Assembly (NCBI GenBank): GCA_009711825.1
Contig: VEMY01000010.1
Span: 124,001 to 188,000 of the forward strand
Reading direction: 5' to 3'
DNA: 64,000 bases
Source of the DNA: Bacillota bacterium
GTDB lineage: Bacteria; Bacillota; Proteinivoracia; UBA4975; VEMY01
Below the pieces are notes generated by a model. That model was not told the origin of the DNA. It was given only the letters and a program-made list of their open reading frames with translations, and made no database searches. Below are positions 6,952-17,094 of this stretch, piece by piece (position 1 is the stretch's first letter; each line of letters starts with the position of its first letter). The position numbers and the translations under genes are program-made.

Positions 6952-7010
6952 TGGCTCCACCTCCACAGATTTCTCTCTGTAGGGTTTCCCTTTTAATTGG
7001 ATTTAATAAT

Positions 7011-7049
7011 GCAAAATCCCGGCAGGCAAAGTAATAACCGGGATTTTGC
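7011..7049 (-). terminator. Perfect 12-bp inverted repeat after pseudopilin operon
   Basis: gcaaaatcccgg (7011-7022) and ccgggattttgc (7038-7049) are perfectly complementary around a 15-base loop. The hairpin falls between the stop of the pseudopilin gene at 7062 and the RND gene. The 3' flank on the minus strand is only moderately T-rich (ATTATTAAAT), so it may be a weak terminator or an mRNA-stabilising hairpin. Confidence 0.5.
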
Positions 7050-7061
7050 CAAGGTCAAGGG

Positions 7062-7577
7062 TCAAGGCCTAACATAACGCAAGGCAGGGACAGATGAATG
7101 CATAGTACCTGAGTTTTCAATGTTCAACAACATCACAGATGATTCCATACTATAAGCCACATCACCACTAATAATACCAAGTTTGAACGAAAACATATCT
7201 GCCTCCAGCCAGAAACTTGCCTCGGAGATTATTGCGTTTGTTAAGGGCCTACTTGCTTGACTGTCAGCAATAATAATCTGACCACTATGCTCATCAAAAT
7301 ACAAAAACCTTTCACCGGGAGAAATCTCAGCTTGCTCCGGTAAATCATCCCAGTCATCCAACATCGTCAAAACAACAGCATAGCGCATTTCCTGAGTAAG
7401 CAGCTCAGAGACCAGACGTAGGTCATGGTGCATTTGCGCCTGCCGCCTCCCCAGATTATAGGTCTTATGGCCCATCAGGAAAAATGAAAAGACCCCCGCC
7501 ATTACCAAAGACAAAATTATCAAGACAACAAGCAACTCAACCAAAGTTATACCGGATTGCGAACGCAAGTTAATCAT
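7062..7577 (-). CDS. Type IV pilin-like minor pseudopilin (PilW/GspJ-like)
   Basis: Secreted pseudopilin, 171 residues. The N-terminus MINLRSQSG-ITLVELLVVLII is a class III prepilin signal: short basic leader, Gly at -1, Glu at +5, then a hydrophobic helix of about 20 residues. The remaining region is a soluble domain rich in acidic and aromatic residues with no recognised enzymatic motif. It is the third gene of a three-gene operon with the PilX-like and PilV-like genes upstream, 12 bases after its neighbour. Role is probably priming or tip of a pilus; assignment to PilW/GspJ is by position and length only. Confidence 0.8.
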   Translation of the reverse strand: MINLRSQSGITLVELLVVLIILSLVMAGVFSFFLMGHKTYNLGRRQAQMHHDLRLVSELLTQEMRYAVVLTMLDDWDDLPEQAEISPGERFLYFDEHSGQIIIADSQASRPLTNAIISEASFWLEADMFSFKLGIISGDVAYSMESSVMLLNIENSGTMHSSVPALRYVRP

Positions 7578-7589
7578 CTGCGTTCCCCT

Positions 7590-7955
7590 TTACTCGGCCA
7601 CAAAAGTAAGATAATGCACTCGCCTGTTTTCACTATACTGCTTTTCAATACTAACCAACGTGCCAGTAAACACTCTGCCAAATAGAACAATTTCATATTC
7701 ATCTTCCCTAACCAACTCATCTGTCTGATATGTATCATCAGCAATAGCCCTTTCCATTTCCTGTTGCGCTTCTGCGACGAATGTCCCTCTATTTCCAGCC
7801 AGCCCTATCGTCCTGTAACTATTAATGAAAAGCGCACTCAATGACAGTGCTATTAACAAGAAAATCGCTGTAGCTATAAGAACTTCGACCAGGGTAAAAC
7901 CGGCCTGTTTCGAACAGTCAAACAATAAGCTCCCCCCCTCCCCGTGAACTATCAA
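7590..7955 (-). CDS. Type IV prepilin-like protein (PilV/GspI-like)
   Basis: Small pseudopilin with the motif KQAG-FTLVEVLIATAIFLLIA: Gly at -1, Phe +1, Glu +5 and a hydrophobic helix. The frame is open as far as 8018, but that would overlap the upstream gene by 67 bases. Two better starts exist: TTG at 7955, where TTG and the upstream TGA overlap (TTGA), suggesting translational coupling, with a 121-residue product; or TTG at 7925 behind a G-rich GGAGGGGGGG stretch, giving a 9-residue leader. I report 7955; the leader length is unsure. Second gene of the 7062-9232 operon. Confidence 0.72.
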   Translation of the reverse strand: MIVHGEGGSLLFDCSKQAGFTLVEVLIATAIFLLIALSLSALFINSYRTIGLAGNRGTFVAEAQQEMERAIADDTYQTDELVREDEYEIVLFGRVFTGTLVSIEKQYSENRRVHYLTFVAE

Positions 7956-9232
7956 TTTCTTTTCCAATGGCCGCGTTTTAATCCTGAATTTCCAGAAGGC
8001 AACGGTATATCCTCCCATTTTTGGTCCGGCTCAAAATACACCCGAGAATTTCCGACAGCGACAAAACTGTTACCTATGACGGAACCATAAACGGTAGAAC
8101 TGCCGCTTAGTACAACATCGGCGTTGGGTGCATATATTGTCCGAACTAACGCAGAGGTGCTGCCCTCAAGAGAAACGTTGCTACCACCAGTGATAATACT
8201 ACCGAGAATGCCCCCAGAGCCCTGCAGAACGATGTCAGCAGATTCGGAGTACAAACAACCGTACAATCTTGTATTACCCGGGGGACCAATTGGCTGGGAT
8301 CCTTTATAATAAAGCATTATCTGGTTAGGATCTCCCCCCTGATTAATTGTACCACCCCCGCTAAGAATAAACTCTTCCTCAATGTAAAGTTCAAGCTGAC
8401 CGGAGCCAACCAGTTCAATTGCACCCGACCCTTCAACAACAAGTTTGCGTGCCCTTATCCGGCGGACATCATGTCCAACATCGATAATCAAATGACTCTG
8501 AACCCTTAGCTCATCAAAGGTCCAATCATCGAAGATATGATGTGGAGGCGAAGGCCACCACCCAGCCAAAAAATCTCCGTAATAGTTCAACTCTGAAGGA
8601 AACTGGGGAAAAGGAGGCAATGGATAAGTGCGCACCTCATCAAGATTTCCAACCAAGCCCACGATATTTTGTAATCCTCCCTGTTGGCTGTCAATAACCT
8701 CGTTGGGATTACCGCCAACACCCACATAAAAGTCTCCGTCAACCTTTGGCGACCAGGTGAACTTAACACTTCCGGGCTCAACTGAATTTGTACCTGACAC
8801 ACCAATAACGGCTGAGCCTTCAAGTTCCAGAGTAGTCTCTGCGAACACTGCCATATCAAGATTAGGCATGCTGGAATCAGAAAACAATGAAACCTTGACT
8901 GTATCACTATAACTGGAAACATGCCCCGTCGACTCCACCACAATATCCTCACCTTGTTCGACAACACGAACCACGCATCTGCCGTTCGCCAACTCAAATT
9001 CATCTTCGCCCATGGCAAGAAAATCATCGATATCACCAGGATTTTGCAACAAGTGCGCAGCTACAGCATCTGCACCACTCCTGGCCAAATAATATGCTTC
9101 GATCTTTTTCTCATGCCGGACCGCTTGGGTTACATCATTCATTCCAACACTGATTAATGTGGTACCAAAAATCAATAAAATCAAAGTAACCACCAACACA
9201 GTAACCAACGTAGAACCACGCTCATTAAGCAT
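7952..9232 (-). CDS. PilX-like pilus protein with a C-terminal repeat/adhesin-type domain
   Basis: 426-residue exported protein. The N-terminus MLNERGSTLVTVLVVTLILLIFG resembles PilX/GspK-type pseudopilins without the Glu+5. After a linker, residues ~120-410 contain degenerate repeats of the form 'valine-rich strand - SGS - small residues' (LVVEGSGAIELVGSG, VVLSGSSTVYGSVIG), the pattern of the beta-helical domain called DUF7305 in recent Pfam releases; this family name is from memory. The ATG follows GGGGGGTAGGGA. It is the first gene of the operon, behind a good promoter at 9282-9311. A surface-exposed pilus subunit or adhesin is likely (inference). Confidence 0.75.
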   Translation of the reverse strand: MLNERGSTLVTVLVVTLILLIFGTTLISVGMNDVTQAVRHEKKIEAYYLARSGADAVAAHLLQNPGDIDDFLAMGEDEFELANGRCVVRVVEQGEDIVVESTGHVSSYSDTVKVSLFSDSSMPNLDMAVFAETTLELEGSAVIGVSGTNSVEPGSVKFTWSPKVDGDFYVGVGGNPNEVIDSQQGGLQNIVGLVGNLDEVRTYPLPPFPQFPSELNYYGDFLAGWWPSPPHHIFDDWTFDELRVQSHLIIDVGHDVRRIRARKLVVEGSGAIELVGSGQLELYIEEEFILSGGGTINQGGDPNQIMLYYKGSQPIGPPGNTRLYGCLYSESADIVLQGSGGILGSIITGGSNVSLEGSTSALVRTIYAPNADVVLSGSSTVYGSVIGNSFVAVGNSRVYFEPDQKWEDIPLPSGNSGLKRGHWKRN

Positions 9233-9281
9233 TCCCTACCCCCCATCTAGCTCTGTACACCCTTTTTCAACAATTTAGATT

Positions 9282-9311
9282 ATTATCTCGTTTTTTTCAG
9301 TAACCTGTCAA
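9282..9311 (-). promoter_or_regulatory. Sigma-A type promoter of the pseudopilin operon
   Basis: TTGACA (9306-9311), 18-base spacer, GATAAT (9282-9287) on the minus strand, ending 49 bases before the ATG at 9232. In the rest of this 345-base gap (9312-9540) I see no gene; the only structure is a short palindrome TATCGA-aac-TCGATA at 9390-9404. Confidence 0.65.
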
Positions 9312-9540
9312 ACCATAAATGACTAACAAATCCACGAATTACAGAATTGAACCTTAACATTGTTTAGGTAATGCGATACTTTTTCTATTTATCGAAACTC
9401 GATATCGGCTTTCGCAATCAACTGTTAGGTTTTTCCACGATATTCGTTCATACGACACCCTTCTAGACGATCCCTGATATTTCTGGATATCTTCATTGTT
9501 TGCTCATCGGTTTATCAATCATTAAACATTGAGCTTTACA

Positions 9541-9575
9541 GAAATTAAAATGTCGCTCCGCATACGCAAAGCGAC
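9541..9575 (-). terminator. Intrinsic terminator after aroK
   Basis: Two bases after the aroK stop codon the minus strand reads GTCGCTTTGCGTATGCGGAGCGAC, a hairpin with a GTCGCT/AGCGAC stem, followed by ATTTTAATTT. Confidence 0.65.
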
Positions 9576-9577
9576 TT

Positions 9578-10069
9578 TCACACTATAAACTTTTCTATCG
9601 TCTCTGCCAGATTTTCTATCGGCGCATCGACCTGCAACTGCCAGAGACAGCACTGCCGGTAGAGTTCCTGCCTGCGGTTATATAGGGCATAGAAACTCTC
9701 TTTGTCAACAGCCAAGGGACGATACTGCGAACTGGTCTGCACCCGATGCCAGCAGATATCCGGACCGGGGTCCAGAAGCAAAACCGGCAAACTCTGCAGG
9801 AGATTGCGGTTATTTTCAGATTCGACAACTCCGCCACCGAGAACGATGATGCCGCGTTTCAGACGGGCAAGTTCGCCCAGCAAGATCTGCTCCCGGGCAC
9901 GAAAGGCGACGGGGTCGGCATGGAGCTGGTTTCCGGGAGAGTCTCCCTGCCAGACTTCCAGCAAATGATCGCTGTCCCATAAAGGCAAATCCCACTCACG
10001 GGCTAGGTAGTGGCCAAGAGTGCTTTTACCAGATCCCATAAAGCCGATAAGGAATAGCAGCAACTTCAA
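9578..10069 (-). CDS. aroK: Shikimate kinase
   Basis: Phosphorylates shikimate at the 3-hydroxyl with ATP (aromatic amino acid pathway, cytoplasm). With a TTG start at 10069 the product is 163 residues, MKLLLFLIGFMGSGKST, the normal length and N-terminus. The open frame extends to 10144, but an AGGAGG 11 bases before the TTG and homology to usual starts favour 10069. Motifs: Walker A GFMGSGKST, DSDHLLE in the shikimate-binding region, the GGG turn in VLGGGVV, and the lid arginine around SSQYRPLA. aroE lies about 6 kb upstream in the same direction, with the TasA-like and comG-like genes between them. Confidence 0.9.
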   Translation of the reverse strand: MKLLLFLIGFMGSGKSTLGHYLAREWDLPLWDSDHLLEVWQGDSPGNQLHADPVAFRAREQILLGELARLKRGIIVLGGGVVESENNRNLLQSLPVLLLDPGPDICWHRVQTSSQYRPLAVDKESFYALYNRRQELYRQCCLWQLQVDAPIENLAETIEKFIV

Positions 10070-10125
10070 TTCTCTTAGCACCTCCTGGCAAACATAATAT
10101 ACCAAACCGGGGAAGAGCAAATTGG

Positions 10126-11061
10126 CTAAGGCAGAACCTCCCAAACATGGGAAGCGTCGGGTGGGTCATTTTGAGTATACCAACCTGCCCTGTATTGCTG
10201 CCCGTTATACCAAACAATATCGCCGTTGTTATAAACATTGAAAGAACGCCACTCATCGGTCAACTCATTCCAAGGACTGCGCATTAATCCAGGTTGATCA
10301 TTTTGACTATAACCTCTAGCCCGAAATTCTTTACCTTCAAAAACAACAATGTCACCTTCGCCATAAACATTATACCAACGCCACTCATCGGTTACCTCTT
10401 GCCATACGGGGTCTGTCCCCGGTTCAATCCCTTGAATGTACCACCGGGCCCAAAAGATTCTTCCGTCGTGTATAACGTAATCATCTTCCTCATAAATCGT
10501 TACCGAATCCCATTGAGGATATGATTCAACAACATTTATTTGAACAGGGAATTCGTAAGTGCCAATGGTATTGCCTTCAAGAGCGACCGACAATGTAACA
10601 TTTGTCGAAAATAATCCTATTTCTTTGTTTTTAAATTGAAACTCAGCCTCAATATTGCCGCTATCCCCGGGCTGAATACGATTATTGCCAGTCAAATCGG
10701 TAAGCATGTTATTTTTCATAAGAGAATTAGGGTTATCTATATTGAAAGTTACGGTAATTGCTGAGTTAGACTTATTTACTATTTCACCCAAGAGAAAACT
10801 CTCTTTACCTTTAGAATTTTCATGGTTACCAAAATCAACAACAAAATCTCCATTGTGGTTGTGAAACCCCACGGGCCCACTTCCATCTTGTCGCTGATAG
10901 GTGTCTTCATTGTTACCCAATGTAATATAGAAAAGGACATGGCCAGGATGGGTGCTAATTGTGTCTTCGGCTATAATGTAACTAGTACCAAAAAAAGCCA
11001 TCGCCTGTGGGCTAATAGCAATAACTGCAATTATAACAAGGGCGATGATTAACTTTTTCAC
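10126..11061 (-). CDS. Secreted protein: TasA-like N-terminal region plus three CBM5/12-type chitin-binding modules
   Basis: 311 residues from the GTG at 11061, whose GTGA overlaps the sipW stop and which follows GGGGGG; the frame extends to 11109 without a better start. Residues 1-22 (MKKLIIALVIIAVIAISPQA) form a signal peptide. Residues ~25-180 are a beta-rich domain with features of SipW-processed fibre proteins (IIAEDT after the signal, and conserved Asn/Gly-rich strands). Then come three tandem ~40-residue repeats (about 184-224, 228-268, 273-311), each of the form W-x-Y-x-x-GD-x-V-x-(Y/F)-x-G-x-x-(Y/F)-x-A-x-(W/G)-x-x-(Q)-N/G-x-x-PG...W, the signature of carbohydrate-binding family 5/12 (ChiC-type). 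No catalytic domain. Likely anchors matrix fibres to chitin-like or peptidoglycan sugars (inference). Confidence 0.8.
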   Translation of the reverse strand: MKKLIIALVIIAVIAISPQAMAFFGTSYIIAEDTISTHPGHVLFYITLGNNEDTYQRQDGSGPVGFHNHNGDFVVDFGNHENSKGKESFLLGEIVNKSNSAITVTFNIDNPNSLMKNNMLTDLTGNNRIQPGDSGNIEAEFQFKNKEIGLFSTNVTLSVALEGNTIGTYEFPVQINVVESYPQWDSVTIYEEDDYVIHDGRIFWARWYIQGIEPGTDPVWQEVTDEWRWYNVYGEGDIVVFEGKEFRARGYSQNDQPGLMRSPWNELTDEWRSFNVYNNGDIVWYNGQQYRAGWYTQNDPPDASHVWEVLP

Positions 11062-11441
11062 CAGAATCCCCCCAATGGAACCTGAAATACGACACGTCCA
11101 ATAATCCATTGATACTCAATAGCCGCCGGAGTAGCATCAGGAACTGCGTCTCCCTGAGTATAAAACATCCCGTCTGCGATTTCCACAATCCGATGTGTTT
11201 CGGTGTTAAACCCGGGTTGTTGGTAAGTAATTATATCGCCGGTCCGTAATTCTGAGCTTTCCACTGGCTGGACAACGATAATATTATTCGGTCTAATATA
11301 GGGCGCCATACTGCTTGAGGTAACACGAAAAGACTGCCACCCCCATAATTGGGGAACCCACATCAGTGCTAGAATGGCAATCAGGAAGACTGTAAATGAA
11401 ATTATAGCACCTTTGATAGCTGTTGTTAGTATATTAAACAT
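11058..11441 (-). CDS. sipW: Signal peptidase I of the ER/archaeal type (SipW-like)
   Basis: Membrane-bound signal peptidase, 127 residues. A first hydrophobic helix (8-30) precedes the catalytic Ser in TSSSMAPYI (S44). The general base is a His (TETHRIVEI, H83) instead of the Lys of usual bacterial enzymes, and the acidic residue is in TQGDAVPD (D98), the arrangement known for SipW and eukaryotic Sec11. SipW enzymes mature TasA/CalY fibre proteins. It sits between a TasA-like gene and a secreted CBM protein, which are its probable substrates. No Shine-Dalgarno is directly upstream of the ATG; a hairpin at 11450-11473 separates it from a GGAGG (see findings). Confidence 0.9.
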   Translation of the reverse strand: MFNILTTAIKGAIISFTVFLIAILALMWVPQLWGWQSFRVTSSSMAPYIRPNNIIVVQPVESSELRTGDIITYQQPGFNTETHRIVEIADGMFYTQGDAVPDATPAAIEYQWIIGRVVFQVPLGGFW

Positions 11442-11449
11442 ATCTGGTT

Positions 11450-11473
11450 AAGGGGCTGCAACAGCAGCCCCTT
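11450..11473 (-). promoter_or_regulatory. Intercistronic hairpin between the TasA-like gene and sipW
   Basis: AAGGGGCTGC-TGTT-GCAGCCCCTT on the minus strand, a perfect 10-bp stem with a 4-base loop, eight bases before the sipW ATG. No T-run follows, so it is unlikely to be a full terminator. GGAGGAA lies directly 5' of the stem. Confidence 0.6.
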
Positions 11474-11491
11474 TTCCTCCGTCTCTAAGGT

Positions 11492-12073
11492 TTAATCTTC
11501 GCTAGGTTCAAGAATATTCCCTTCATCATCTATTGCGTCAACTTGGTATGCATGAAAGGTTATTTCTACCTGAGTAGATTGGGCACTATACTGATTATCG
11601 GCAGCTTGAGACAAATGGACGTAGAAACTAAGAGTAACATCATCATTGGGATCTAATTGATCTTGTCCCACTACAATTTCTCCATCGATGAGGTTATCTT
11701 TATATATGTCAGCGCCATCATCATCTTGGATAACCAAATAAAGCTCACTTTCGTCTCCCCACAATATGTTCGAATCTTGTGTATCAGGCCGTGCAATTTC
11801 TACCCAATAGATGAACTCAACTTCTCCTGAATTCTTAATCGTGACCTCTTTGGATTCGCTTTGACGACCTGGAATTAAATCAGTTACTGTAATAAGTTCT
11901 TCATAGTTTTCAATTTCAGCCTTCCATTCTAGAACAGTTACGTCGCTGGTATCTGTTTCTACAGTACTAAACCAAGCACCAGTTCCCTGAATCGTAACTA
12001 CACTATAAACCAATAGAATCATTACAAAAGCCAAGCCTATGATGACTGAGGTCCGTCTTCTTCCTCTGCTCAT
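11492..12073 (-). CDS. TasA/CalY-like SipW-dependent fibre protein
   Basis: 193-residue secreted protein. Signal region: basic MSRGRRR, hydrophobic 9-27, then GTGAWFSTVETDTSDVTV, which matches the SipW-type cleavage context (G-T-x-A-x-F-S/T-D/T) seen in TasA and camelysin precursors. The mature part is beta-rich with LIPGRQSESKEVTIKNSGEVEF, the 'N-x-G-x-x-x' strand typical of TasA-family proteins, and an acidic tail (EGNILEPSED). ATG follows GTGGGGGT. First gene of an operon with sipW and the CBM protein, behind a consensus promoter with two operator-like repeats. Probably forms extracellular fibres in biofilm or spore-associated matrix; camelysin-type metalloprotease activity cannot be claimed, as no HExxH is present. 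Confidence 0.82.
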   Translation of the reverse strand: MSRGRRRTSVIIGLAFVMILLVYSVVTIQGTGAWFSTVETDTSDVTVLEWKAEIENYEELITVTDLIPGRQSESKEVTIKNSGEVEFIYWVEIARPDTQDSNILWGDESELYLVIQDDDGADIYKDNLIDGEIVVGQDQLDPNDDVTLSFYVHLSQAADNQYSAQSTQVEITFHAYQVDAIDDEGNILEPSED

Positions 12074-12136
12074 TTAATTACCCCCACTTTAATTTGTCCC
12101 ACGCATACCCAGGCACCCTACCTGCTTGTCCAAACT

Positions 12137-12174
12137 AAAGTGCTCATTTATTACTGGGGAAAGTGCTCATTTAT
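12137..12174 (-). promoter_or_regulatory. Twin 15-bp direct repeats downstream of the TasA-like promoter (candidate operator)
   Basis: The 15-mer ATAAATGAGCACTTT (minus strand) occurs twice with no mismatch, at 12160-12174 and 12137-12151, a 23-base period (about two helical turns). They start about six bases after the expected transcription start of the promoter at 12187-12215, where a repressor would block elongation or open-complex formation. Confidence 0.6.
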
Positions 12175-12186
12175 GTACCCATTGCG

Positions 12187-12215
12187 ATAATATCAATTCC
12201 CGATAGGACTGTCAA
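12187..12215 (-). promoter_or_regulatory. Sigma-A promoter of the tasA-like/sipW/CBM operon
   Basis: TTGACA (12210-12215), exactly 17 bases, TATTAT (12187-12192) on the minus strand. The predicted start near 12180 gives a ~105-base leader to the ATG at 12073. Confidence 0.8.
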
Positions 12216-12240
12216 CAAGAATTTGTATTTTTTGTCTGAT

Positions 12241-12540
12241 TTAGTCGTAATCCACACTCACAATTACTCTGTCGAGGCGAACCGTGATTGTTGAGGCATC
12301 AATCTCAATTGTCACTTCGCTATCAGGCCAATTGTCTGCCACCTGCAAGGCGAGGTCTGGGTTTTGTTTTGCCAGCTCCGCCAGCGAGTGAGCTACATAC
12401 TTGGCCCGGGTATAGTGATAGTCATCCAGGGCCGAGGCAAGGTCAGAGCGAGCGTTATGTAAGAGTGTGATGGCTGCGGGAACTGCCGCCAACATCAACA
12501 CCAGCACAACTATCAAGACATATCCTTTCTGGTTATTCAT
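12241..12540 (-). CDS. Small pseudopilin-like membrane protein, last gene of comG-like operon
   Basis: 99 residues. MNNQKG-YVLIVVLVLMLAAVPAAITLL has the basic leader, Gly at -1 and long hydrophobic helix of a pseudopilin but no Glu at +5, as in GspK/PilX-type tip subunits. The soluble part is short and acidic. Its start overlaps the end of the preceding pseudopilin gene by eight bases. Function inferred only from position and N-terminus. Confidence 0.65.
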   Translation of the reverse strand: MNNQKGYVLIVVLVLMLAAVPAAITLLHNARSDLASALDDYHYTRAKYVAHSLAELAKQNPDLALQVADNWPDSEVTIEIDASTITVRLDRVIVSVDYD

Positions 12541-12952
12541 TGCTCATCTGAAAGCAACTCCGGTATGTCTGCCCATCTTTATATATCAGCGTCATCCAGA
12601 GAACATCATCGTCGAGCTGCCAATCAACGGCCTGCACCTTGTCGGCGAAGGCGGCATCGCGATTTTGCCAGTTGCGGTAAAAGGAACCAGCGGGCGTCAA
12701 ACGGTAGGTGGCCAAGCCGCTGTCCAGATAAAAAATTGCCCTGTCGGACAAAATCGATACAGACTTGGCATTCATGGCGTCTGTAGCCAAGGAATCGTAG
12801 GCCTGGGCTGCCCAATGGCGTTGCCGGGCCTGGTCATTGGTTGTGTGCCACATCTGCCAGAATACATAAAGCTGCGTCGCAGCCACAGTCAAGATAAGTA
12901 ACGAGAGTGCGGTGGCGACCAATGTTTCCAGTAAGATATAGCCCTTGCTCAT
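12533..12952 (-). CDS. Pseudopilin (ComGF/GspJ-like)
   Basis: 139 residues. MSKG-YILLETLVATALSLLILTVA is a class III prepilin signal with Gly at -1 and Glu at +5. The soluble domain has the 'DR.IFYLDSGLATYRLT' type strand pattern seen in ComGF/GspJ proteins. Its ATG overlaps the stop of the previous gene (12949-12952, ATGA). Exact orthology to a com gene is uncertain. Confidence 0.72.
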   Translation of the reverse strand: MSKGYILLETLVATALSLLILTVAATQLYVFWQMWHTTNDQARQRHWAAQAYDSLATDAMNAKSVSILSDRAIFYLDSGLATYRLTPAGSFYRNWQNRDAAFADKVQAVDWQLDDDVLWMTLIYKDGQTYRSCFQMSNE

Positions 12953-13266
12953 TGCACTCGAACCATAGCCAGTGGTTTGGGTAGCGCTTCGCCTGTGACC
13001 TCCACCTGCCAGTAGCTGATGCCGTTTGAGTGTAGAGCGGTGAGTGTACTGGTGAGACTGGCTTCACTAAGCACATCCGGCGCCTGACCGGCTGAGGCCA
13101 ACTCCAGATGGGCCTGGGCCAACAGCCGTCCCCTGGTCACCGCCTGGGCAGTGTCAGCTATTTGCAATGTACTGACAAACAAAGCACCCAAGGTCAGGGC
13201 AACAAGCACCATGATTGCCGCAGCAGCGGCCACATCCAGGAGGATTGCGCCCTTACTCTTGCTCAT
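12949..13266 (-). CDS. Pseudopilin-like minor subunit
   Basis: 105 residues from the ATG at 13266, which overlaps the end of the comGC-like gene by 14 bases; the frame extends to 13287 but that start lacks support. MSKSKG-AILLDVAAAAAIMVLVALTLGALF has Gly at -1 and Asp (not Glu) at +5. A short soluble domain ends in a repeated Val-rich strand. Belongs to the comG-like operon by overlap on both sides. Confidence 0.65.
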   Translation of the reverse strand: MSKSKGAILLDVAAAAAIMVLVALTLGALFVSTLQIADTAQAVTRGRLLAQAHLELASAGQAPDVLSEASLTSTLTALHSNGISYWQVEVTGEALPKPLAMVRVQ

Positions 13267-13576
13267 GGTTACAGACCACCCGGCCATCTTCTAGCTCGTA
13301 TTCCCCACCCAACGGGCACTCCACCGGTTTGGAAAGTAATTTTTCCTCTGTCAGAAGCTCGGTCAGGGTTTGGTTTTCCGGCTTTGGCAGCTCGCCATTT
13401 TTAAGCCGGTAGCGCTCAACCTGGGCATCGAGAATTTCAATATTGGCAATGCAAGCGTCTTGGCGGGAACTTTCCAAGGCATGCAGATAATTGGGCACAG
13501 CAATTGCCGCCAAAATGCTGATAATCGCCACCACAACCAGCACCTCCATCAGTGTAAAACCATCCTTGTTTAACAT
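13253..13576 (-). CDS. comGC: ComGC-like major pseudopilin
   Basis: 107 residues, MLNKDG-FTLMEVLVVVAIISILAAIAVPNY: canonical prepilin cleavage site, Glu+5, and the 'AIAVPNY' helix end of GspG/PilA/ComGC major pilins. Two cysteines in the C-terminal part (VECPLGGEYELEDGRVVCNH) could form the disulfide known for GspG-type pilins. In competence systems this forms the transformation pilus. It follows comGB by 14 bases with a normal ribosome binding site (AGGTGA). Confidence 0.85.
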   Translation of the reverse strand: MLNKDGFTLMEVLVVVAIISILAAIAVPNYLHALESSRQDACIANIEILDAQVERYRLKNGELPKPENQTLTELLTEEKLLSKPVECPLGGEYELEDGRVVCNHEQE

Positions 13577-13590
13577 GTTTTCACCTACCT

Positions 13591-14568
13591 TTAAATAGCA
13601 GTCATTATGCCCAACAAAGGAAGCATAAGCGTGAGAAGCAGCAAGGCCACCAAGCCGCCAACCGCCAGAACCGACAAGGGTTCAAGATAGCGCTGCAACA
13701 TTGCGAACCCGGTCTCCGTCTCCTCCAGATAATAATCTGCAGCCCGTTTCAGGGTGGACTCCATATCACCGGTAATTTCGCCCTGGGCAACAAAGGCCGG
13801 CAGCAGGCCGGGACTTTCCGCCAGCGACGTGGTCAGATCGATTCCCATGCGCAGGTCTTTGAGCACAGACGGCGCCGGCCCAGACGGGTTCAGGGTCGCG
13901 GCCATTTCCAATCCATGCTCTAAGTTCTTACCTACTGCCACCGTCATGGCGGTAATCCGGCAGAAGTAATAACAATTGATGCTGCGCATTATCGGGATTT
14001 TTGCTCGTGCCTGCCAGGGCAGTCTTCTTATCCACATCGTTGTCCCTGTCAGTGCGGCAACAATCAGGAGGGCAATCAGGGCGAACCGGAATGGCGTCAG
14101 CGCCTGGGAAAGGGCAAACACCGCTTGTGTCGCCGGCGGAGGAATTACATCGAGACCGGCGTAGAGGTCGGCGAATACCGGCGTCACATGCCAGAGGGCC
14201 ACCAGGCCACTTATCCCGGCGACAGTGAGCACCAGCATCGGATAAAACAACATCCGCGCCAGCTGGTTCTGGATTTGCCAGCGCTGCTGATAATGCTGGC
14301 CCAAAAGTTCCAGGGCCGGGAGCAGGCTGTCGTTGTCCTCGCCAATCTTCAGCAAGCGACAGTAGAAGTCTGGAAATAATTTGGGCATGCCGGCCATTGT
14401 CTGGTGGACCGGGTGTCCGTTTCGCAGGGTGGTGGCCAGCGTTCCTGTGGCCTTGGCATAGCCCCGGTGGGGGAAATATGCGGACAAATGCTCCAGGGCG
14501 GTGACCAGGGGCAGGCCGCTTCTTAGCATCGAAGCCAATTGCCTGGTACAGAGCAGCAGATACTTCAT
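13591..14568 (-). CDS. comGB: ComGB-like / GspF-family platform protein
   Basis: 325-residue membrane protein with two T2SSF domains. The first contains FPDFYCRLLKIGEDNDSL and the second PAFVAQGEITGDMESTL, the duplicated 'G-E-x-x-x-x-L' motif. Transmembrane helices are near 110-130, 155-178 and 295-322. Its ATG overlaps the comGA stop (ATGA at 14565-14568). Second copy of this family in the window, clearly diverged from pilC at the left edge, consistent with a separate DNA-uptake pseudopilus. Confidence 0.87.
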   Translation of the reverse strand: MKYLLLCTRQLASMLRSGLPLVTALEHLSAYFPHRGYAKATGTLATTLRNGHPVHQTMAGMPKLFPDFYCRLLKIGEDNDSLLPALELLGQHYQQRWQIQNQLARMLFYPMLVLTVAGISGLVALWHVTPVFADLYAGLDVIPPPATQAVFALSQALTPFRFALIALLIVAALTGTTMWIRRLPWQARAKIPIMRSINCYYFCRITAMTVAVGKNLEHGLEMAATLNPSGPAPSVLKDLRMGIDLTTSLAESPGLLPAFVAQGEITGDMESTLKRAADYYLEETETGFAMLQRYLEPLSVLAVGGLVALLLLTLMLPLLGIMTAI

Positions 14569-15611
14569 ACATGCCCCTCCATTTCCAGAGCAATGCGAGT
14601 CAACTCATCACTGGTTGTGCGCCCCTGCTCCACTTTGTGGAGACAGTCATCCAGAAGGGTTGGCTTAGGGGGATTTGGTTCGTTACCGGTGAGAATTGCC
14701 TGACGGCAGGGTCCGGTTACATTAAGCAGTTCAAATATACCCACCCGGCCAAACCAGCCACTGCCCATGCAACGCTGACACCCCTTTTTGCAAGTACAGG
14801 GGCGCCGCACCAGCCGTTGCGCCAGGACACCGTTCAGCGCCCCTGCCACCTGATAGCGGGCACAGTTCATCTCCAGCAAGCGGTTTACAGCCCCCCGGGC
14901 CGTGAGGCTGTGCATCGTCGCCATGACCAGGTGCCCGGTCATCGCCGCCCGTACGCTGATTGCCGCCGTCTCGGCATCGCGAATCTCCCCCACCAGGACC
15001 ACATCCGGATCCTGACGCAACAGGCCCCGGAGCCCGGTGGCAAAATCCAGTCCGCTGCGGTAATTGACTTGGGTTTGCACCACATCGGCCAGCCGGTACT
15101 CCACCGGGTCTTCCAAGGTCATGATATTTACCCGGCTCCTGTCCAGGAGGTGCAGGGCGGCGTAGAGTGTGGTGGTCTTACCCGAGCCGGTGGGACCGGT
15201 GACCAGTAGCAGGCCCTGACGCCTCAAAACCATGCGGGAAAACTCCTCGGCCATTGCCTGGGGCATGCCCAGTTCGCCCAGATCCAGGCTCAAAGGCTCA
15301 CAGGGCAGCAGACGCAGGGCAAGCTTTTCCCCCAGGATGCTGGGTTGGGAGGCGGCCCGCAGGTCAAAATGTCTGCCCGCCACGACTTTGTGGAAGCTGC
15401 CATCCTGGGGCAGCATGCGCTGGGCCACATCCATGCCCGATTCCACCTTGATGATGCTGATCAGCTGGCGGCCCTCCCCGGTGGGCAATGTACGCCCGGG
15501 CAGCAGTTGGCCGTCGATACGCATGCGGATGCGAAATTGTTCTTCCGTCGGTTCGATATGCACGTCGGTGGCGCGAAGGTCCACCGCTGAATTTAACAAC
15601 TCGGCAAGCAT
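14565..15611 (-). CDS. comGA: ComGA-like / GspE-family traffic ATPase
   Basis: 348 residues, lacking the N-terminal MshEN domain of PilB, which is the length of ComGA. Walker A GPTGSGKTT at 139-147, Asp box MTLEDPVEYR (164-173), Walker B DPDVVLVGEIRD (201-212), His box GHLVMATMHS. The zinc loop is CTC-x3-CQRC (C272, C274, C278, C281), tighter than the CxxC-x4-CxxC of PilB. ATG follows AGGAGGTAAATC. Drives assembly of the pseudopilus for DNA uptake if this is a true competence system; ComEA/EC are not in the window. Confidence 0.87.
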   Translation of the reverse strand: MLAELLNSAVDLRATDVHIEPTEEQFRIRMRIDGQLLPGRTLPTGEGRQLISIIKVESGMDVAQRMLPQDGSFHKVVAGRHFDLRAASQPSILGEKLALRLLPCEPLSLDLGELGMPQAMAEEFSRMVLRRQGLLLVTGPTGSGKTTTLYAALHLLDRSRVNIMTLEDPVEYRLADVVQTQVNYRSGLDFATGLRGLLRQDPDVVLVGEIRDAETAAISVRAAMTGHLVMATMHSLTARGAVNRLLEMNCARYQVAGALNGVLAQRLVRRPCTCKKGCQRCMGSGWFGRVGIFELLNVTGPCRQAILTGNEPNPPKPTLLDDCLHKVEQGRTTSDELTRIALEMEGHV

Positions 15612-15621
15612 GATTTACCTC

Positions 15622-16053
15622 CTAACGCTGGACCCGTACCCGACCGGAATGGTTGGCAATAATGATTTGCACATTTCCCTGCCAGTTTTCATGGGTAAGG
15701 GAGATCCTGCCGTTTTGACTGGCCCGGCCGCTGGGATGGTAGCGGACTTGGTGCTGATAGCTTAGGTAGTCAAACTCCACGCCTGCTGGCAGCCAAATTG
15801 TCTGAGCAACCGGGTATTGACCGGAAAGGTCTTTAATTACGTAGCAATTATCGAAGGGGAAAAAAGCGAACTCAAAGGTTGTGTTTTGGGCCACAGCCAG
15901 CTGTTGATAGTGTTGCAGTTCCCTTGCAAGGCGCTCCGCTGCCTGTTCGGCTGAGAGAACCGCAGCCAGGTCTACTCCCACCGGCGCCACCACCGCCATG
16001 CCAAGGCCGAGAATTGCCAAAGCGACCGCGACAGAAATTAGTTTAAAATCCAA
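15622..16053 (-). CDS. GspH/ComGD-like pseudopilin with atypical leader
   Basis: 143 residues from a TTG start (GAGGGGAG upstream). The N-terminus MDFKLISVAVALAILGLGMAVVAP is hydrophobic but lacks the Gly|Phe-x-x-x-Glu prepilin site. The rest (AAERLARELQHYQQLAVAQNTTFEF ... FDYLSYQHQVRYHPSGRASQ-NG) follows the GspH/FimT pattern, including the 'F-x-x-x-G' C-terminal strand region. Eleven bases before comGA. Either a degenerate pseudopilin or one processed differently. Confidence 0.65.
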   Translation of the reverse strand: MDFKLISVAVALAILGLGMAVVAPVGVDLAAVLSAEQAAERLARELQHYQQLAVAQNTTFEFAFFPFDNCYVIKDLSGQYPVAQTIWLPAGVEFDYLSYQHQVRYHPSGRASQNGRISLTHENWQGNVQIIIANHSGRVRVQR

Positions 16054-16136
16054 CGCTAATCGCTCCCCTCAACTTTTTCTATTTTTTTCGCCACCAGTTG
16101 ACTGTTTTCCTGCAAGAATCCGAAAATTCTGTACAC

Positions 16137-16156
16137 GAAAAAACACCTTACGGTGT
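16137..16156 (-). terminator. Intrinsic terminator overlapping the aroE stop codon
   Basis: Minus strand ACACC-GTAA-GGTGT followed by TTTTTTCG; the TAA in the loop is the aroE stop. It would reduce transcription from aroE into the comG-like operon. Confidence 0.7.
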
Positions 16157-16903
16157 CAGCGGTAAATTGACTGCAGCTGCCATCGCAGCCACAGGCGCCG
16201 GGCGGTTGCTCCAGAGCGTGAAACTTTCGGCTGCCTGAAAGACCAGCATTCCTAAACCTGAATAATAGTTTGCATGGAGTATATCGTTCTCAAGATAATT
16301 TAGATTATAGATTAGCGCTTTTTGCGGCCAGGACCAGCGCTGCCAGACCCCGGGGGGTGTACAGACAAAAATCAGGTCGGCCTCCGACAACTCCGGTGTG
16401 TGCCAAGGGATATGTTCCACTGCCTGCTTGAACCGCTTGGCCAGGTCGTTTGCCTGTTCCTGGCGCCGGCAGACAATGGTTACTGTTGCCGAAGAGTTCA
16501 AGTTAGCTAACACGGCAGCAGCGGCGCCACCTGCGCCCAAGATAAGGATTTTGCGGCCGGTGGTTGTTATGCCAAGCCGGACGAGATCCCGGTTGAGACC
16601 CACGACGTCGGTGTTATAACCTATTAGGCGCTTGTCCCTGCGCACGATGGTATTAACAGCGCCCAATTGTTCCGCCACTGGGTCCAGTTCATCCAGGTAG
16701 CGGATACACTCCTCCTTATAGGGGATTGTGACATTGGCGCCGATGCAGCCCGGCGACCTCAAGGTATCTATTGCCTCCGCGAACTCCGGCACCGCCAGCA
16801 GTTTGTATTCCCAGGGTAAATTAAAGGCCGAGCAGGCGGCGCTGTGCAGTTGTGGCGACAGCGAGTAGCCCGGTGCCCGGCCAATCAGGTATAGTTGATT
16901 CAC
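16148..16903 (-). CDS. aroE: Shikimate dehydrogenase
   Basis: Reduces 3-dehydroshikimate to shikimate with NADPH. 251 residues, about 20-30 shorter than usual because of a compact C-terminal lobe. Visible: shikimate site SLSPQLHSAA (14-23), GANVTIPYKE with catalytic Lys63, GAVNTIV (81-87), YNTD with catalytic Asp99, the NADPH glycine motif GAGGAAAA (123-130), and the C-terminal FQA-x-SF. It follows the small gene at 16900 with a 4-base ATGA overlap and downstream lies yqeG's partner order known from B. subtilis (yqeG...aroD). Confidence 0.93.
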   Translation of the reverse strand: MNQLYLIGRAPGYSLSPQLHSAACSAFNLPWEYKLLAVPEFAEAIDTLRSPGCIGANVTIPYKEECIRYLDELDPVAEQLGAVNTIVRRDKRLIGYNTDVVGLNRDLVRLGITTTGRKILILGAGGAAAAVLANLNSSATVTIVCRRQEQANDLAKRFKQAVEHIPWHTPELSEADLIFVCTPPGVWQRWSWPQKALIYNLNYLENDILHANYYSGLGMLVFQAAESFTLWSNRPAPVAAMAAAVNLPLTP

Positions 16904-17094
16904 TCTTCTTCCTCCCCGGCCTGCCCAAAATAGAGCTTGAGCAGCACCCGTTCTCCATCCCGAATCAGGCCGATATCGTTCAGCCGCTGCCCCGGGGCAG
17001 GGGGCTGACGTTCAACCACCTGCTTTAAAAGCGCCAGCGGCGCCTGTCCTGAGGACAGATCCAACTCCTGAAAGTATACTTGTTCCTGTTCCAC
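16900..17094 (-). CDS. Small acidic protein of unknown function upstream of aroE
   Basis: 64 residues from GTG at 17094, eight bases after AGGGGG; the frame is open to 17223 but that part overlaps yqeG and has no ribosome binding site. Sequence is soluble and charged (ends QAGEEEE), with a predicted helix-strand pattern but no motif I recognise. Translationally coupled to aroE (ATGA overlap). It could be a regulator or structural partner, but nothing in the sequence shows it. Confidence 0.6.
   Translation of the reverse strand: MEQEQVYFQELDLSSGQAPLALLKQVVERQPPAPGQRLNDIGLIRDGERVLLKLYFGQAGEEEE

Follow-up and report, generated by a model that had tools for sequence, protein, structure and literature searches.

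TasA-type fibers serve as matrix scaffolds, but little has been established about their attachment, whether to surfaces or to the cell. An operon found in an anaerobic Bacillota bacterium raises the question of whether such a fiber could come with its own means of attachment. The operon lies within a 64,000-nucleotide stretch of contig VEMY01000010.1, referred to here in its entirety as the window. A preliminary description, made from the sequence alone, had proposed that a TasA-like fiber protein, its Ser-His-Asp signal peptidase, and a third secreted protein ending in three CBM5/12-like repeats are encoded by an operon inserted in a pilus region. The minus strand does carry all three genes, within 10126-12073, and the operon is flanked by pilus genes. 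Read along that strand from 12240 to 9578, the order is promoter, TasA/camelysin-like gene, SipW-type gene, third gene, aroK, and terminator:

12241..16053, minus strand: type IV pilus genes upstream of the operon (GspH, GspE, GspF, pilin, minor pilins; PF12019, PF00437, PF00482, PF07963)
12241-12540, minus strand: GspK-like minor pilin, the last gene before the operon
12187..12215, minus strand: promoter of the fiber operon, sigma-70-type and strong (TTGACA, 17-base spacer, TATTAT, TG before the -10 box)
12137..12172, minus strand: direct repeat AAATGAGCACTTT in the 5′ leader, two exact copies (12160-12172 and 12137-12149, 23 bases apart)
11492..12073, minus strand: TasA/camelysin-like fiber protein, 193 amino acids (PF12389 above cutoff, TIGR04090 below cutoff, TasA-profile match)
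11058..11441, minus strand: SipW-type (ER-type) signal peptidase, 127 amino acids (TIGR02228 above cutoff, alignment with seven relatives)
10126..11061, minus strand: secreted accessory protein with CBM5/12 array, 311 amino acids, GTG start (sequence, PF02839)
9578..10069 (5′ end approximate), minus strand: aroK, shikimate kinase, downstream of the operon (PF01202, E=1.1e-25)
9552-9575, minus strand: terminator after aroK (terminator prediction)

The promoter agrees with the consensus at 11 of 12 positions and is the best-scoring site within 9400-12700. Position 12215, which had been given as the outer limit of the locus, is the first base of its -35 box, while the TasA-like gene itself starts at 12073 and not at 12215. 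For the third gene, the list of open reading frames begins at an ATG at 11109. The GTG at 11061, yielding a 311-residue protein, is the better reading because a GGGGGGA ribosome-binding site precedes it by five bases and because it overlaps the SipW stop codon by 4 bases (GTGA), with sipW first and the accessory gene second. At the other end of the operon, aroK is probably carried on the same transcript. A search of 7000-17000 for an RNA regulator gave no Rfam match. The two matches of the AAATGAGCACTTT repeat exceed chance expectation, given that none of 100 shuffles reached two. The repeat might be an operator or an insertion scar. We considered a scar left by an insertion element and set it aside, as the 172-base leader has no second copy in the genome. 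Downstream of aroK, apart from the main pilus operon, the interval 7062-9232 holds another three pilus genes, one for PilX/DUF7305 and two for prepilins.

The peptidase and fiber protein assignments both stand. The SipW-type peptidase scores 64.2 bits against TIGR02228 (cutoff 51.85), and alignment with seven relatives reveals that the catalytic residues Ser44, His83, and Asp98 are kept. Its score against the Bacillus SipW equivalog NF046067 (49.9 bits) is below the cutoff of 190. The protein stops at residue 127 and lacks the C-terminal membrane helix present in all seven aligned relatives, although the gene is otherwise intact. The third gene begins roughly where the region encoding this helix would start. 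The TasA-like protein passes PF12389 (Peptidase_M73/camelysin) narrowly, with 23.2 bits against a cutoff of 22.5; a profile assembled from the TasA-like proteins of other SipW clusters, nine in number, detects it at E=3.8e-12. It also resembles the BsaA family (TIGR04090; E=2e-5), with a score of 24.4 bits that is under the 60-bit subfamily cutoff. The model for SipW-dependent signals, TIGR04088, finds no match up to E=1 in either the TasA-like protein or the third protein.

The third protein gives the operon its distinctive character. As had been proposed for the product of 11061-10126, its C-terminal part matches PF02839 (CBM_5_12) over three stretches, with a total of 54.2 bits (cutoff 26.2; E=1.5e-14):

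10402..10512, minus strand: CBM5/12 module 1, residues 184-220 (PF02839; aromatic pair W-Y)
10270..10383, minus strand: CBM5/12 module 2, residues 227-264 (PF02839; aromatic pair reduced to G-Y)
10141..10251, minus strand: CBM5/12 module 3, residues 271-307 (PF02839; aromatic pair W-Y; nearest to the ChiC chitin-binding domain)

Among solved sequences the nearest comes from Streptomyces griseus ChiC, namely its chitin-binding domain (CBM5, 2d49; E=1.4e-7), and chitinases also match. An AlphaFold2 model reaches a pLDDT of about 90 or more across the three modules, for which Foldseek retrieves chitin-oligosaccharide deacetylases (repeats), ChiC, and Chi60, with a TM-score of 0.72 on the target for 2d49. 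The chitin-binding aromatic pair of SgChiC is named as Trp59/Trp60 in PMC5328894, which cites Itoh 2006. Modules 1 and 3 keep the equivalent pair as W-Y, whereas module 2 has G-Y. Thus, the array resembles the ChiC domain in sequence, fold, and aromatic binding residues, but the window protein carries no catalytic domain. Among plasmid-borne relatives of the array, those with annotation are a lytic polysaccharide monooxygenase (LPMO), GH18, and one carbohydrate-binding protein. From these resemblances we infer that the array would bind a β-1,4-GlcNAc-type polysaccharide. A phage origin for the array was also considered and discarded, with no match found in phage records or viral contigs.

Similar arrays are present on proteins of a different filament. 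Prepilins with one to five C-terminal CBM5/12 modules are encoded at L003 5551-6849, L013 976-1758, L023 133-1095, and L019 1057-1629, in hosts that belong to several lineages of anaerobic Firmicutes. The L019 pilin has a single, weaker module, and the L003 gene resides inside a pilus gene cluster. The window's succession of repeat types, from the first through the middle to the last, recurs in the pilins of L003 and L013, more loosely in that of L023, and in a secreted protein of L002. The best L003 segment is 58% identical to the window array, as judged from a contig scan that depends on exact short peptides. In these pilins, however, the array is carried by a prepilin that has an N-methylation motif. 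In our survey, a pilus protein carries the PF02839 match in 4 of the 21 other genomes that have such a match. The L002 protein was examined as a possible second SipW fiber with CBMs, given a signal that appears SipW-like by eye, and was rejected: it matches neither TIGR04088 nor the TasA profile, and no SipW is found in that partial genome. A PilX-like DUF7305 protein at L071 9536-11254 (also recovered as L027) contains two inserted, weaker CBM5/12-like modules and belongs to a pilus cluster starting at aroE. That cluster is a counterpart of the window cluster, whose own DUF7305 protein (7952-9232) is free of CBM5/12 modules.

The N-terminal part of the third protein includes two features:

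10996..11061, minus strand: signal peptide region, residues 1-22, VKKLIIALVIIAVIAISPQAMA (sequence; helix at residues 2-16 in the structure model)
10522..10860, minus strand: putative Ig-like domain, residues 68-180, of a SipW-cluster accessory family (profile match to SipW-adjacent proteins)

When the first 180 residues served alone as a query, nothing matched in plasmids or in 398 further genomes from the phylum. The family link emerged only by way of SipW neighborhoods followed by profile building. Three such neighborhoods (L073, L076, and L077) encode proteins whose pattern resembles that of the third protein, and a profile built from these proteins without the window protein matches the latter at E=2.4e-5, as its only further match among the open reading frames of all loci. 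Because the three seeds had been chosen by eye for their resemblance, we conducted a shuffle control. With a five-member profile, whose two extra members came from an alignment that included the window domain, the real N-terminal domain scores 25.7 bits, compared to at most 8.9 bits in 2000 shuffles. A search with a four-row alignment across the 399 genomes surveyed places the domain in five other genomes, each with an adjoining SipW gene; three of these are the seeds drawn from SipW neighborhoods, such that only G106 and G100 are independent for the SipW link. No copy of the domain away from SipW was found in this survey. In addition, the reading frames of SipW and the accessory protein overlap in the window and in L083 and L084. 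Given the association with SipW in all five genomes and the recurring overlap, the domain is most simply regarded as a SipW-cluster accessory domain. Judged by these relationships, the third protein belongs with the SipW operon and is not an oddity added to it.

Structure prediction for this domain, which the preliminary description had called for, gave models of low confidence. A first AlphaFold2 model was mostly below a pLDDT of 50. A second, computed from six sequences, yielded an Ig-like β-sandwich core with a pLDDT of about 70-79 (mean 58). Foldseek with this weak model returned weak Ig/MSP-like matches and neither TasA nor TapA. The lack of a fold match to TasA or TapA, as obtained with the weak model, leaves some room for a secreted carbohydrate-binding protein that merely shares the operon and forms no stable link to the fiber. 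We regard this as very improbable, because the domain family is found only beside SipW in our sample and because the overlap between the SipW and accessory genes recurs.

The same evidence bears on the proposal that the third protein serves the type IV pilus rather than the TasA-like fiber, acting like a CBM-pilin fusion separated from its pilin to decorate or assist the pilus. Its gene sits in a pilus cluster, type IV pilins carry the arrays most closely related to its own (with L003 in a pilus cluster), and G363 encodes a PilX-like protein with two CBM5/12-like modules in a pilus cluster starting at aroE. However, the third protein has no prepilin signal, the operon has its own promoter, the third gene overlaps SipW, and the N-terminal domain is tied to SipW, not to pili, in five other genomes. 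Assignment to the pilus is therefore improbable in our estimation. The best reading of the third protein is as a carbohydrate-binding partner of the fiber, as originally suggested.

The TapA protein of Bacillus subtilis combines an Ig domain with a flexible C-terminus, and the tapA and sipW genes overlap (PMC10151520). The window operon shares with tapA-sipW-tasA a TasA-like fiber protein, a SipW-type peptidase, and an accessory gene that overlaps sipW; the product of this gene is Ig-like in a low-confidence model. The differences are several. The contrast with TapA that had been drawn at the outset holds, in that the TapA model TIGR04087 finds no match in the third protein up to E=1, and so the window accessory is not TapA by sequence. 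Moreover, the gene order is tasA-sipW-accessory, the accessory protein ends in three CBM5/12 modules, and the SipW protein lacks the C-terminal membrane helix. The sipW-bsaABCRSD locus of Clostridium perfringens likewise combines SipW, a BsaA-type fiber protein (to which the window protein has a weak TIGR04090 match), and putative secreted accessory proteins (PMC7395162), but the window operon has no two-component system. Further counterparts are the accessory proteins of G145, G216, G014, G106, and G100 (L073, L076, L077, L083, and L084), which have a homologous N-terminal domain, putatively Ig-like, and an adjoining or overlapping sipW gene. Their C-termini are low-complexity or charged tails, in contrast to the CBMs of the window protein. 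The unusual feature of the third protein is its C-terminus, where three CBMs take the place of the tail of its relatives and of the membrane or LPXTG-like anchor of other SipW-cluster proteins.

Three genomes of the same class (G008, G010, and G011) carry a backbone composed of aroE, GspE, GspF, minor pilins, a CBS-domain gene, a small ComFB-like gene (these last two named by eye), aroK, an RND transporter, PilB, and PilT. In G008, transposase-like genes lie between the RND transporter and PilB. The window shares this backbone, and the fiber operon occupies the slot before aroK. In G001, a member of the same order whose aroK is 46% identical to that of the window, the corresponding slot (L097 4979-6941) contains a TasA-like gene whose product bears a SipW-type signal (38.8 bits against TIGR04088), a partial gene at the contig end that is TasA-like by eye, and a gene for a membrane-anchored protein that matches an anchor profile. 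SipW was not seen in G001, where the contig ends inside the cluster, a possible cause. No other relative from the same order has a close aroK, and since in G001 this position is taken by TasA-like genes together with a gene for an anchored protein, the use of the slot before aroK for TasA-like genes is not unique to the window genome. G+C content is 50-64% for the upstream pilus genes, mostly 38-44% for the operon, and 42-47% for the pilin genes downstream of aroK. As the latter are also low, composition alone is no proof of recent acquisition.

The window genome contains a second SipW/TasA cluster (G000:C58, L066 6428-9446) that encodes a full-length SipW (198 amino acids) and a TasA-like protein, and no CBM. 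It also encodes two TasA-like proteins with C-terminal membrane or LPXTG-like anchors, one of them at 8104-8679. This cluster and L097 of G001 are among the other SipW clusters that encode anchored TasA-like proteins, whereas the window cluster encodes none. Chitin is not the only GlcNAc polymer, as peptidoglycan contains such polymers too. Conceivably, the array grips the cell's own wall, by way of peptidoglycan or another polysaccharide, and keeps the fiber base on the cell in place of the missing anchor. The enzyme content of the genome is compatible with this idea: the third protein is its sole CBM5/12 protein, and of the two GH18 matches one resembles a cell-wall-type enzyme and the other a phage-like protein. 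There is thus no sign of growth on chitin, and no dedicated chitinase was seen. On the other hand, chitin-acting enzymes are the best-known carriers of modules with this type of sequence, and the same array is found on type IV pilins (L003, L013, and L023), where an outward-facing adhesin is the more natural role. Furthermore, the anchor profile does not match the N-terminal domain of the window protein, and the anchored proteins are not homologous to it in sequence. We consider anchoring to the cell's own wall unlikely on balance, though less so than the two alternatives above.

We therefore favor, with somewhat better than even confidence, a SipW/TasA-type fiber operon whose accessory subunit tethers the fiber to a β-1,4-GlcNAc-type polysaccharide, most likely external chitin. 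According to this model, the TasA-like protein and the third protein would be secreted, with SipW cleaving both signal peptides, and the TasA-like subunits would polymerize into a matrix fiber. The Ig-like N-terminal domain of the third protein would associate with this fiber, and its three C-terminal CBM5/12 modules would bind the polysaccharide. The fiber, or its end, would thereby be tethered, more probably by outward adhesion than through the cell's own wall. The model draws on the gene content, the domain homologies, the gene overlap, the repeated placement of the N-terminal domain beside SipW, the retained aromatic and catalytic residues, and the operon's own promoter. Weighing against it are the marginal TasA assignment, the lack of a TIGR04088 match in either substrate, the absence of TasA and TapA among the fold matches, the shortened SipW, the absence of the exact triad elsewhere in the sample, and the lack of any sign of growth on chitin. 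Polymerization in C. perfringens does not need the accessory genes bsaB and bsaC, which improve pellicles (PMC7395162), and B. cereus makes TasA fibers without TapA (PMC4292775). On this basis, it is reasonable to suppose that the accessory role is one of tethering rather than of essential assembly.

The preliminary description had further put the SipW-TasA-CBM triplet forward as a candidate for a previously undescribed system and had asked whether it recurs in Dethiobacter-like genomes. Among the 399 genomes of the phylum surveyed, which are part of a larger group, only the SipW gene of the window has a CBM5/12 gene close by. The two halves do recur separately, as SipW/TasA/accessory clusters with the same N-terminal domain and no CBM, and as CBM5/12 arrays on type IV pilins. 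Because the exact triad is present in no other genome of this sample, the survey does not support a new system that recurs. No paper joining SipW, TasA, and chitin binding was found in a full-text search that extended largely to journals outside subscription. Judged by titles and abstracts, none of the papers retrieved there for SipW, TasA, and a carbohydrate-binding module concerns such an arrangement. The operon is a variation on a known fiber system, in which the accessory subunit ends in a CBM array.

A fiber operon with a built-in carbohydrate-binding subunit would nonetheless provide a direct and testable mechanism of attachment. We also propose, more tentatively and as a possibility that falls short of probable, that anaerobic Firmicutes use tandem CBM5/12 arrays as an exchangeable end-piece for different extracellular filaments, namely type IV pilins in several lineages and, here, a TasA-type accessory protein, to give enzyme-free filaments that bind chitin or peptidoglycan. 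If true, then the window would be the first case of such an end-piece on a TasA-type fiber, with a pilus and a fiber encoded side by side. The sharing of the array with type IV pilins suggests that it may represent a general way for filaments to stick to polysaccharides.
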